DNA from: Spirulinaceae cyanobacterium SM2_1_0
GTDB taxonomy: Bacteria; Cyanobacteriota; Cyanobacteriia; Cyanobacteriales; Spirulinaceae
Reading direction: 5' to 3'
NCBI GenBank assembly: GCA_012031265.1
Contig: JAAUTY010000002.1
Coordinates: 1-64,000 of the forward strand
Length of the DNA: 64,000 nt
In this document: positions 58,801 through 62,845 of the stretch, piece after piece
How positions within the stretch are numbered: position 1 is the stretch's first letter
Layout: every line of letters starts with the position of its first letter
Notes under the pieces: generated by a model
Databases searched by the model: none
Told to the model about the DNA's origin: nothing
What the model saw: only the letters and a program-made list of their open reading frames with translations
Program-made: the position numbers and the translations under genes

Positions 58801-59208
58801 CTAACCGCCTGCAAACACCGTCGCGGTGCCGGTGGTCTGAATCTTACCGATCGGCTGGTCACTGGGATCATTGCAGGTTTTGCAAATGTCGCCCGCCCGC
58901 GCCAAGGGCTGACCATTCACCCGCACCGTGCGGCTGCCTGCGAGCACGGTTCCCTGGTTGCTGGGCGTTTTGCGGAAGCGCGAGGCAGGCGACAGTACCG
59001 AATGGCGGGGTGTATTGATGCCCACGCTGCCAACGACAGCCGCTGGCTTGCCTTGTATAAATACGGTCGTGCTCAGCGACTGCTGGAGCGGCCCGCTAAA
59101 ATTATGCGTCTGCTGGCGCACGACTTCACCTGCACCAGACGCCACCATCACCTCATGTGTATCTTTGGCGATGATGCGATCGCCCTGCTTCGCGGCAGCT
59201 TGTCTCAT
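58801..59208 (-). CDS. PAAR-domain spike-tip protein
   Basis: A 135-residue PAAR-repeat protein. PAAR proteins form the sharp cone at the tip of the spike in contractile systems (T6SS, Afp10/Pvc10 in extracellular CIS). Visible features: AAAKQGDRIIAKDTHEVMV at the start, TTVFIQGKPAAVVGSVG, GTVLAGSRTVRVNGQPLARA and GDICKTCNDPSD with the metal-binding Cys/His/Asp pattern. No other CIS gene adjoins it; it lies about 24 kb from the CIS operon and in reverse orientation, so it is most likely its separated tip. A T6SS is not expected in cyanobacteria. Confidence 0.8.
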   Translation of the reverse strand: MRQAAAKQGDRIIAKDTHEVMVASGAGEVVRQQTHNFSGPLQQSLSTTVFIQGKPAAVVGSVGINTPRHSVLSPASRFRKTPSNQGTVLAGSRTVRVNGQPLARAGDICKTCNDPSDQPIGKIQTTGTATVFAGG

Positions 59209-59419: not shown

Positions 59420-59983
59420 TCAGACCTGCAACCAGCCGAATAGCTCGCCGACTGTGAGGCGAAAATCGCGGGCAAACTCGGGGACGGGCAGACCAGCGGC
59501 TGGCTCGTCGCAGATGGTTGTCGCCTGCTCCGGCTGATAGATGAGCACAGTTCGCTCCGCCGGGTCAATGAGCCAGCCGAGCTGCGTGCCATTTTGTAAG
59601 CAGTGGAGGATATTTTTGGTGACGCGGGTTTGGCTCTGGTCAGGCGAGAGGATTTCGATCGTCCAGTCGGGGGCGATCGCAAACACATTTGCCACCCCAC
59701 CATTCTCCCGACGCGGAATCCGCTCACGCCGAAACACGGCAACATCGGGAACGAGCGACCGACCGCCAAATGTGCAGCGTAGCTCAGGAACCGCGCGGGC
59801 AATCTGCTGGGGTCGGAGCGCCGCATTGATATTGGTGGTCAAATCAGCTTGCAAGAAGCTGTGTTCTCCCTGGGGCATCGGCTTCTGAATAATCGCTCCG
59901 TCGATGTATTCGCTCGCCGGTTCGGTCTCGGGCAAGGCGAGAAATTCCGCCAGCGTCAGGGGTTTGGTCGGTGTTTGTACCAT
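59420..59983 (-). CDS. Uma2 family protein, tandem copy 1
   Basis: A 187-residue Uma2/DUF820 putative nuclease. Core motifs are SEYIDGAIIQKPMPQGEHS, LVPDVAVFRRER (metal-binding Asp), DWTIEILSPDQSQTRV with Glu and KNILHCLQNGTQLGWLIDP. It is the second gene in transcription order, 95 bases after copy 2. The DNA is identical to copy 2 over 59420-59785, and again over most of 59859-59983. Only the segment for residues about 42-66 differs strongly. Confidence 0.85.
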   Translation of the reverse strand: MVQTPTKPLTLAEFLALPETEPASEYIDGAIIQKPMPQGEHSFLQADLTTNINAALRPQQIARAVPELRCTFGGRSLVPDVAVFRRERIPRRENGGVANVFAIAPDWTIEILSPDQSQTRVTKNILHCLQNGTQLGWLIDPAERTVLIYQPEQATTICDEPAAGLPVPEFARDFRLTVGELFGWLQV

Positions 59984-60078: not shown

Positions 60079-60642
60079 TCAGACCTGCAACCAGCCGAAT
60101 AGCTCGCCGACTGTGAGGCGAAAATCGCGGGCAAACTCGGGGACGGGCAGACCAGCGGCTGGCTCGTCGCAGATGGTTGTCGCCTGCTCCGGCTGATAGA
60201 TGAGCACAGTTCGCTCCGCCGGGTCAATGAGCCAGCCGAGCTGCGTGCCATTTTGTAAGCAGTGGAGGATATTTTTGGTGACGCGGGTTTGGCTCTGGTC
60301 AGGCGAGAGGATTTCGATCGTCCAGTCGGGGGCGATCGCAAACACATTTGCCACCCCACCATTCTCCCGACGCGGAATCCGCTCACGCCGAAACACGGCA
60401 ACATCGGGAACGAGCGACCGACCGCCAAATGTGCAGCGTAGCTCGGTAAAGGCTCTGCCGATGCGTTCAGCTTTTAGAATCTGGTTGGTCGCGGATGCTA
60501 ACTCTGTTTGGATGAGGCTGTGTTCTCCCTGGGGCATCGGCTTTTGGACGATCGCTCCGTCGATGTATTCGCTCGCCGGTTCGGTCTCGGGCAAGGCGAG
60601 AAATTCCGCCAGCGTCAGGGGTTTGGTCGGTGTTTGTACCAT
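60079..60642 (-). CDS. Uma2 family protein, tandem copy 2
   Basis: A 187-residue paralogue of the preceding gene, offset by exactly 659 bases. The C-terminal 122 residues match perfectly, and so do almost all of the first 40; the stretch between (SLIQTELASATNQILKAERI) is diverged from copy 1 (SFLQADLTTNINAALRPQQI). Such mosaicism suggests a tandem duplication followed by gene conversion, or two old paralogues partly homogenised. Function as in the Uma2 family, unknown. Confidence 0.85.
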   Translation of the reverse strand: MVQTPTKPLTLAEFLALPETEPASEYIDGAIVQKPMPQGEHSLIQTELASATNQILKAERIGRAFTELRCTFGGRSLVPDVAVFRRERIPRRENGGVANVFAIAPDWTIEILSPDQSQTRVTKNILHCLQNGTQLGWLIDPAERTVLIYQPEQATTICDEPAAGLPVPEFARDFRLTVGELFGWLQV

Positions 60643-60778: not shown

Positions 60779-62845
60779 CTAGAGCAGGCGATCGCGAAAA
60801 TAGCGCCGATATAGCTCACAGCGCGGCTGAACCTGATTGCCCTGGAGCGAGACCAGCCCGATGCTATGCAGCTTGAAGGCCTGGTCAGACGGCAGCAGGA
60901 GCGGCTGGTCGTTGTTGACTACGGCACGCATCGCTGTTGCCAAGCGCGGTTGCTGGCGCAGTTGCCAGAAGTGGCGGCGGAGGTGATCACTGTAGAGGCT
61001 CGCTTCGGTGGGTGCAGTGGCGAGTAGTTCGGGGAGGGTGGTATCTTGGCGGGCGATCGCATACATCGCCAAGCGCGCCAGGTAGGGATGTCCCCCGACG
61101 AGTTGCATCAATTCCGCTACCTCCGTCTGCCAGTCGAGTCCGTGTCTGCCAGCGAGTTCGCGCATCTGAGCGGCGTTAAATTCTGGCAACTCGAGGGGTA
61201 ACCCGACGTTGAAGGGGGATTGATTGAACGCCATCGGCACATAGACTTCGGTGGAATGGACGATGATCAGCCGCAGCCGCTGCCACACGGGGCGATTTTT
61301 GGCGTCCTCATGCCATGCCCGCAGCATCCCCAGGAAATCAGCGGCGCAGTCGGGATGCTCGAAAATGCAGTCCACCTCGTCGAGACCCAACGCCAGCGGT
61401 CGCTCCAGGCTACTGAGAATCTGTTCTTCAAAATAGGCAGTGCAGTTATCCTTGCTGCCAAAAATCTCATCCCAAAACTCCCGCAGCCGATTGGGTAAAC
61501 CCAGGCGACGGCCGATGCTGGCGCAGAACCACTGCAAAAAACGGTCGAGATCGCGGAAGAGCGATCGCTCCGCCAATTGGAAACTCAGCGAGAGGCTGTC
61601 GCAGCCCTGCTGGCGCGCATAGTGGAGGGTTTGCGCCAGCAGCGAGGTTTTGCCCATCTGGCGCGGCGCTTTGATCCGAATCAGTGCCCCCGGTCGGAGA
61701 ATCGTTTCGCGGGCGCGGGCTTCCAAGGGCGGACGTTCGATATAAAAGTCAGAGCCAACCTCGACTTGACCTTCCGGTAATTCGGGGATCGCGGCGGGCA
61801 ACGGGAGAGCCGTTGCGGCTGGAGCCGGAGTTTGCCGGGGCATGATCTCGCCCATCCTCACGGGCGATGCCATTAGACCGCCCGCCAATAGATCGAGCAC
61901 GGTGGCAATCAGGGTTGGGGTTTCAGCGGGCGATCGCCAGACGCAGGGCGGTTCTTGTTCGAGGTAATCCTGCCAGGGCGCACGGCGCGCAACATCAGTG
62001 GCAGACCCCGCCCAAATCGGCAAGAGCAAGGGCTTGCCAGCAGGATGTTGGGCTTGCAATTCCTGCGCTCGCCGCCATTCTTCAGCCACCATCTCACTCC
62101 GCAGCGCCTGTTCCGAGAGCAGGAACAGGAGATAATCGCAGCCGCGCAGTTTCTGTTCCAGCCAGGACACCCAGCCAGGATCACCATACAGGTCATCACT
62201 CGCCATAAAGGCGCGGTAGCGCGCTTCGGTCAGCGCCTGATACAACTGGTTAGCCAATATGCTGTCGGGTTCGCGGGTACGGTAGGTCACCAGGACATTG
62301 GCGCGAATCATCGGACGCGCCGGAGGGGCGATCGCATAGACGGCGCTCGGTTCGGCAGCAGTTGCCAGCGAGTGTAGACCCAGATCGGTCACATTGAGTT
62401 TGAGATGGTGCTTGACAGCCTGGTAAGCCGCCTGCGAGAGACAGATGCCACCCGGGGCAGCGAGCCGTTGCAAGCGGACGACGAGCGGATCACTGGTTGC
62501 GGTTGCCACACTGCGATCCCCGACATTTTCGAGGTGAATGCCGAGCCGATGATCGAGGCGATCGCGGGGGGAAACTTGCGCCCCAGCCTGGGCGAGGGCA
62601 GTTTGGCTGGCGATCGCGTAGAGCACAGCTTGTTCAGCACTGGCAAAGGCGAGCAGCAGTCCGCTCTCGAAGGTCTGGAGCACGGTGCCGTCGTGTTGAG
62701 CCGCGAGCGCGCGCAGCAACTGGCGATCGCGTTCGAGCAAAGTCAAGGTCTGCGCGGCGTCGGCAGCACGCCGGGGACGGAAGCCCTCGACGGCGGTGCA
62801 AACGACTGCTGTTGGTCGGCGCGTTGCGATCGGTGTCGATGCCAT
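60779..62845 (-). CDS. Pseudo-cyclase, TIR and ATPase domain protein
   Basis: A 688-residue three-part protein. Residues 12-172 resemble class III adenylate/guanylate cyclase domains (LLERDRQLLRALAAQHDGTV, LGIHLENVGD, LAAPGGICLSQAAYQAVK). However, both metal-binding Asp positions are changed (Ala18, Ser61), so catalysis is unlikely. Residues 181-320 form a TIR domain (NVLVTYRTREPDS, MASDDLYGDPGWVSWLEQKL, LLSEQALRSEMVAEEW) with the possible NADase Glu at 255/256. Residues 360-688 form an AAA-like/STAND-type ATPase with Walker A APRQMGKTS (393-401) and Walker B LALGLDEVD (484-492). Signalling or defence is inferred from this architecture. Confidence 0.8.
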   Translation of the reverse strand: MASTPIATRRPTAVVCTAVEGFRPRRAADAAQTLTLLERDRQLLRALAAQHDGTVLQTFESGLLLAFASAEQAVLYAIASQTALAQAGAQVSPRDRLDHRLGIHLENVGDRSVATATSDPLVVRLQRLAAPGGICLSQAAYQAVKHHLKLNVTDLGLHSLATAAEPSAVYAIAPPARPMIRANVLVTYRTREPDSILANQLYQALTEARYRAFMASDDLYGDPGWVSWLEQKLRGCDYLLFLLSEQALRSEMVAEEWRRAQELQAQHPAGKPLLLPIWAGSATDVARRAPWQDYLEQEPPCVWRSPAETPTLIATVLDLLAGGLMASPVRMGEIMPRQTPAPAATALPLPAAIPELPEGQVEVGSDFYIERPPLEARARETILRPGALIRIKAPRQMGKTSLLAQTLHYARQQGCDSLSLSFQLAERSLFRDLDRFLQWFCASIGRRLGLPNRLREFWDEIFGSKDNCTAYFEEQILSSLERPLALGLDEVDCIFEHPDCAADFLGMLRAWHEDAKNRPVWQRLRLIIVHSTEVYVPMAFNQSPFNVGLPLELPEFNAAQMRELAGRHGLDWQTEVAELMQLVGGHPYLARLAMYAIARQDTTLPELLATAPTEASLYSDHLRRHFWQLRQQPRLATAMRAVVNNDQPLLLPSDQAFKLHSIGLVSLQGNQVQPRCELYRRYFRDRLL

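Follow-up and report, generated by a model that had tools for sequence, protein, structure and literature searches.

Plant TIR-NLRs such as RPP1, Roq1 and WRR4A place a TIR domain next to a nucleotide-binding core with a winged-helix end, and related ATPase cores drive STAND switches such as CED-4 and Avs3. In bacteria, the accessible part of the Pycsar description presents a system of two proteins, a cyclase and a TIR protein, joined through a cyclic-nucleotide-binding domain (PMC11224242). The accessible sections of Kaur et al. describe conflict systems of multicellular bacteria, cyanobacteria included, in which TIR, trypsin, kinase and cNMP-cyclase domains are swapped (PMC7159879, PMC8195603), and one of these papers also describes fusions of inactive cyclases to conflict-system proteins (PMC7159879). 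The ATPase domain AAA_35 appears as an accessory domain of cyanobacterial sigma factors in a paper whose accessible text does not mention TIR (PMC11119718), and the accessible part of a cyanobacterial genome paper places the AAA-like domain and TIR in separate gene lists (PMC9679502). In a search mostly limited to papers open without subscription, we found no description of a cyclase-TIR-AAA_35 fusion, and no paper on AAA_35 paired with TIR or on PF14516.

The gene analysed here encodes such a fusion. It lies on the minus strand at 60779..62845 of a 64,000-nucleotide stretch of DNA from Spirulinaceae cyanobacterium SM2_1_0 (hereafter, the window), and its 688-aa product consists, by open reading frame and Pfam, of a cyclase-like domain, a TIR domain and AAA_35. 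The protein resembles the plant TIR-NLRs in the adjacency of TIR and ATPase, and CED-4 and Avs3 in the predicted fold of the ATPase core; it differs from both groups in having no C-terminal LRR or repeat sensor and in carrying an extra cyclase at the N-terminus. It shares with Pycsar (PycC and PycTIR) the association of a class III cyclase with TIR, and a weak similarity to PycC is seen in one relative, L104 (best E 1.9e-7). However, the cyclase, TIR and ATPase here form one chain, and the cyclase is predicted to be dead; Pfam finds no cyclic-nucleotide-binding domain in either the window protein or seven scanned neighbours. Domain swaps and some inactive cyclases are likewise features of the systems described in the accessible text of Kaur et al. 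(vWA-MoxR ternary, iSTAND, iSTAND2 and TERNS3), but in contrast to iSTAND, the Walker motifs of the window AAA_35 are intact, and AAA_35 is not named in that text. The ATPase is shared with many cyanobacterial proteins annotated as 'AAA-like domain-containing protein', many of which are TIR-AAA_35 and a minority of which have a cyclase in front.

A one-chain cyclase-TIR-STAND family whose cyclase is predicted from sequence to be intact thus appears undescribed, the swappable domains of conflict systems being already known. We read the window protein, with a probability of about 0.5, as a degenerate member of this cyanobacterial family: a TIR-NLR-like switch that has lost its cyclase output.

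Domain layout and the ATPase

The reading frame starts with an ATG at 62845 and its stop codon ends at 60779, with 688 codons and no internal stop. The N-terminal class III cyclase-fold domain (residues 9-176; 62318..62821, minus strand) was delimited by phmmer against 3mr7, model matches and alignment. It is followed by the TIR domain (residues 182-323; 61877..62302, minus), defined by alignments around a Pfam TIR_2 match at residues 186-280 (E 8e-12; score 46.2 bits, cut-off 28), and by the STAND-like AAA_35 ATPase (residues 356-684; 60794..61780, minus; Pfam E 7.9e-144), to which the model and fold matches add a winged-helix-like end. This bears out the order of domains proposed by an earlier, sequence-only reading of the same DNA, which named no strand, with Pfam identifying TIR_2 and AAA_35 and phmmer and the model identifying the cyclase; the TIR domain that it had placed at 181-320 is recovered by the profile search above the cut-off. 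No C-terminal repeat sensor or superstructure is recognised by Pfam, and because the chain stops four residues past the AAA_35 match, any sensor has to sit at the N-terminus or in a separate protein. Codon composition looks normal across all three parts of the gene (GC3 0.67-0.71), and promoter and terminator scans found none.

The ATPase is the best-preserved part of the protein. Invariant columns occur in both Walker motifs, A (APRQMGKT, residues 393-400; 61646..61669, minus) and B (LALGLDE, residues 484-490; 61376..61396, minus): A393, G398, K399, T400, D489 and E490 are identical in all 26 aligned proteins, in agreement with the earlier claim of intact motifs. An AlphaFold model of the whole protein built from 26 sequences was set aside for its poor ATPase (mean pLDDT 68.3, pTM 0.33); the ATPase modelled alone with 94 sequences reached a mean pLDDT of 89.1. 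By itself, the sequence profile of the ATPase gives just weak P-loop matches to RecA. The model matches the archaeal ATPases 2qen (Z 21.2) and 2fna (Z 20.6), ORC2 (Z 18.8), and the nucleotide-binding cores of RPP1 (Z 17.8, 285 residues), WRR4A (Z 17.7), CED-4 (Z 17.6) and Roq1 (Z 16.4). The last four alignments cover 282-290 residues and extend to the model's final residue, at 8-14% identity, and Avs3 is the fourth-ranked Foldseek match. These fold matches suggest that the window ATPase adopts a NOD-like fold with a winged-helix end resembling the NLR/STAND core, and so favour the STAND-like character that had been proposed for it.

The cyclase and TIR domains

Several lines of evidence indicate that the N-terminal domain keeps a cyclase fold, as had been claimed. 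A phmmer search of PDB sequences matches 3mr7 over residues 9-176 (E 5.8e-12), an AlphaFold model of this part matches 3mr7 in Foldseek (E 1.6e-10), and VIA, with the model, gives Z 22.6 for 5d0h and Z 22.3 for 3mr7. The model has pLDDT block means of 78-94 over residues 11-110 and 52-89 over residues 111-180, and because its alignment included relatives with an intact cyclase, the predicted fold is partly assumed. Pfam reports no cyclase family in the window protein, and at E 1e-3 the window copy is absent from the 26 PF00211 matches of its own genome.

We mapped six catalytic columns by alignment to 3mr7; from studied class III cyclases, we take these to be the two metal Asp residues, a purine-selecting pair, and the transition-state Asn and Arg. 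Where 3mr7 has D, K, D, D, N and R, the window protein has A18, Q57, S61, V113, P120 and R124. Both metal Asp are therefore missing, just as the sequence-only reading had noted, the first replaced by Ala18 (codon at 62792..62794, minus) and the second by Ser61 (codon at 62663..62665, minus). The purine-selecting K/D pair has become Q57 and V113, the transition-state Asn column is Pro120, and only Arg124 is retained. We predict from these substitutions that the domain is catalytically dead.

The same is not true of the family. All 20 aligned relatives of identical domain order retain D, D, N and R; this count omits L053 (truncated and identical to L104) and L122 (the refetched window) and includes L130, which is C-terminally short. 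In L213, a further cyclase-TIR-AAA_35 relative, all six columns are intact; the cyclase of L210 is intact too, but long stretches of L210 are identical to L041, which is among the 20. The purine K/D pair is retained in 15 of the 20 relatives and changed at both positions in five, which could mean a different nucleotide substrate. These five (L115, L116, L117, L119 and L120) keep the metal Asp and have A/Q, S/S or Q/E in place of K/D. In the genome that holds the window, the 26 matches to PF00211 correspond to 25 loci, and both Asp are retained in all 25; in one of them, L177, the Asn has been lost from the first cyclase domain, the second domain being partly covered. Retention of D, D, N and R by the relatives suggests that the domain was ancestrally an enzyme and that the loss is particular to the window copy. 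Comparison with the 20 relatives and L213 does not support the idea of a pseudo-cyclase by design. A search of 13 genomes of the family turned up no near-sister with the window's lost residues, a full-length match occurring only in the window genome.

The TIR domain retains Glu256 (codon at 62078..62080, minus), as previously claimed for a candidate catalytic Glu. This residue aligns with the RUN1 Glu that is presumably catalytic, and its column is Glu in 20/20 aligned relatives. A stretch that reads mostly PLNYNL in the relatives has been lost from the window TIR. When the window TIR alone was compared with solved structures by phmmer, nothing was found at E 1, and only the family profile, which is similar to immune TIRs, gave a match; the matches listed in whole-model fold comparisons were all cyclases, and these comparisons are hence uninformative on the TIR. 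The ThcB4 model of type III Thoeris scores 26.9 bits, short of its curated cut-off of 220. In L213, the second cyclase-TIR-AAA_35 copy of its genome, the cyclase site is intact and the TIR Glu column holds Lys, and TIR catalysis may therefore not be universal in the family. Close relatives with an intact cyclase site and no TIR Glu had been named as evidence against the sequence-only reading; the intact cyclase sites were indeed found, but the Glu is kept in all 20 relatives, L213 with its Lys being the exception. We consider the activity of the window TIR, judged from its residues, uncertain.

Both N-terminal domains have changed more than the ATPase. At positions invariant in 13 relatives, the window protein differs at 22/56 in the cyclase, 18/48 in the TIR and 11/142 in the ATPase; when each relative was taken as the odd one out instead, the values were 0-11%, 0-11% and 0-7%. 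The difference between the N-terminal domains and the ATPase has a Fisher p of 7e-9, a statistic that ignores relatedness. Fixed trees of 20 proteins, with L130 dropped, served to compare the length of the window tip with the rest of the tree; the ratio is 0.28-0.33 (cyclase), 0.32-0.38 (TIR) and 0.15 (ATPase), against at most 0.11, 0.09 and 0.13 for any other tip. In an ATPase tree of 76 rows, the window's branch is long (0.72) and cannot be placed firmly, and part of the excess change may thus reflect an old split. These patterns suggest that the N-terminal half has been eroded or rebuilt while the ATPase stayed constrained, and that the TIR has apparently been eroded as well as the cyclase, which goes beyond what the earlier note claimed. 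Neutral drift of 0.5 changes per site would be expected to produce about 16 stops in the cyclase and TIR, and the frame is open. Selection on the N-terminal half is therefore likely and is probably still acting, which favours repurposing over plain loss.

Family distribution, neighbours and a second STAND gene

Cyclase-TIR-AAA_35 matches occur in 20 of the 388 genomes of the order, the window's own genome included (one match, in G128, is cut short C-terminally), and TIR-AAA_35 without the N-terminal cyclase occurs in many more of the 388. The 76-row ATPase tree requires no fewer than five label gains or losses to account for the rows that bear a cyclase, and so the fusion does not form one clean clade in it. 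Other domains also occupy these positions: by Pfam, a Nostoc record (L043) has the order trypsin-TIR-AAA_35, and a 1041-aa protein from a genome of the window's family (L099:925-4050) has the order kinase-TIR-AAA_35-cyclase, with all six catalytic columns kept. At L152:1716-5324, an AAA_35-cyclase adjoins an AAA_35-GGDEF, both with canonical motifs and with AAA_35 called by BLAST to L003. At E 1e-40, 36 plasmid records match, none of them covering 80% of the query.

Many family genes are followed by a second STAND gene. Among loci with at least 900 bases to inspect (two further loci were too short), such a gene lies downstream at 43/68: at 11/21 loci with an N-terminal cyclase, 32/46 without a cyclase and 0/1 with a C-terminal cyclase. 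The query proteins were drawn from three cyclase-bearing loci, which match by construction, and because the flank is about 1.5 kb at most loci, true pairing may be higher. By Pfam, sampled downstream proteins have an AAA_35-like N-terminus with either an unassigned C-terminal part or WD40 repeats. The second STAND gene is likely a partner. Ten of the 21 cyclase-TIR-AAA_35 loci, the window among them, show no downstream partner. Elsewhere in the window genome, L140:7392-9740 encodes an intact 783-aa STAND protein of the partner type, with no TIR-AAA_35 gene seen beside it.

The neighbours of the window gene include SAH hydrolase and psaD, recognised by Pfam, and rbcL, recognised by eye; psaD and rbcL mark the DNA as cyanobacterial. 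Two tandem Uma2-family genes lie just downstream (59420-59983 and 60079-60642, minus); they stand 659 bases apart and share 300 identical bases plus 146 bases at 93% identity, and this near-identity points to a recent duplication. Near the housekeeping genes there is also a gene for a 135-aa PAAR-motif protein (58801-59208, minus; Pfam E 2.1e-12), which falls below the cut-off of the NCBIfam T6SS PAAR model. We recognised no known defence system beside the window gene with Pfam on seven neighbouring ORFs and PADLOC on three, and in those seven Pfam showed neither MoxR nor vWA; the window protein itself has no PADLOC match. The 95 family neighbours run against PADLOC comprised the three window ORFs and 92 of 136 listed ORFs, with family genes and long WD40 proteins among the omissions, and matches were read for 25 of 41 families. 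Among the matches listed, many are to kinase-type PD-T4-6 models, and three members match the Uma2-like PDC-S03; we do not take this scatter for a defence island.

Possible mechanism and role

Beyond the domain anatomy, we infer the mechanism throughout. By analogy with TIR-type plant NLRs, the AAA_35 ATPase would act as an ATP-driven oligomerisation switch, and the trigger would be sensed by the partner STAND protein through its WD40 repeats or other C-terminal part. Oligomerisation would gather the TIR domains and lead to NAD cleavage or an NAD-derived signal; in the relatives, the cyclase would supply either a cyclic-nucleotide output or a feedback input or gate. The window protein would have lost the cyclase output, and the remnant would most likely be a dimer-forming or regulatory appendage.

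A possible alternative, which we hold only tentatively, is that the pseudo-cyclase has been repurposed as a sensor: binding of a phage protein or of a nucleotide, cyclic or not, would release the ATPase and TIR for abortive defence. The frame that stays open despite heavy change, the predicted retention of the cyclase fold, the lack of C-terminal sensor repeats and the inactive cyclases in the accessible account of conflict-system proteins (PMC7159879) are all consistent with this. So are the broken motifs in AAA_35-GGDEF proteins, two from the window genome (L003:969-2963, RYDGAQF; L004:1141-3138, RYSGDAF) and one from a relative. Relatives in the window's family have RYGGEEF and RYGGDEF, and others RYGGEKF and RYSGLCF; a regular expression run on 28 other GGDEF loci fetched from the window genome found 24 canonical motifs, one GSDEF and three loci without the motif. 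This pattern was spotted after the fact and is at most suggestive. The L003 protein has an altered P-loop (APSKMGTSS) as well. Against a sensor, five of the six key residues are lost, presumably including those that contact the nucleotide, the retained fold is partly built into the model through its intact relatives, and change is just as extensive in the TIR as in the cyclase.

We think it rather doubtful that the fuller scheme holds as a whole, in which these proteins are one-chain immune switches, a partner-triggered STAND ATPase drives both cyclic-nucleotide and TIR outputs, and the window cyclase now senses or gates in parallel with the broken GGDEF domains.

Early-stage degeneration, with the gene on its way out, cyclase and TIR both inactive and a slower-evolving ATPase that still looks normal, is unlikely. 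It would fit the lack of a downstream partner, a cyclase below Pfam detection, and the Ala at the catalytic Glu column of L098, the other TIR-AAA_35 protein of this genome; yet frame and codon composition look normal in all three parts of the gene, and 131 of the 142 invariant ATPase residues are retained. Finally, the housekeeping neighbours, the lack of a PADLOC match for the window protein and the scattered PADLOC matches among family neighbours would suit an ordinary regulatory ATPase outside defence whose TIR and cyclase remnants mediate interactions, for instance during cell differentiation, but the immune-like family TIR profile and the swaps of trypsin, kinase and cyclase around a constant ATPase, which resemble the conflict systems in the accessible published accounts, make this very improbable.

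The window copy, with a cyclase predicted to be naturally dead, offers a ready comparison for asking whether this domain serves as output or as sensor. That a second STAND gene so often lies downstream suggests that cyanobacteria, many of which have several AAA_35 genes, possess a receptor in two parts. Of more interest than the window copy is the wider family, in which a predicted-intact cyclase, a TIR and a STAND ATPase occupy one chain: by placing cyclase and TIR, in most members with predicted active sites that are complete, on a single NLR-like ATPase, it would provide a direct test of whether one switch can drive two nucleotide signals, and it may link cyclic-nucleotide signalling to TIR immunity.
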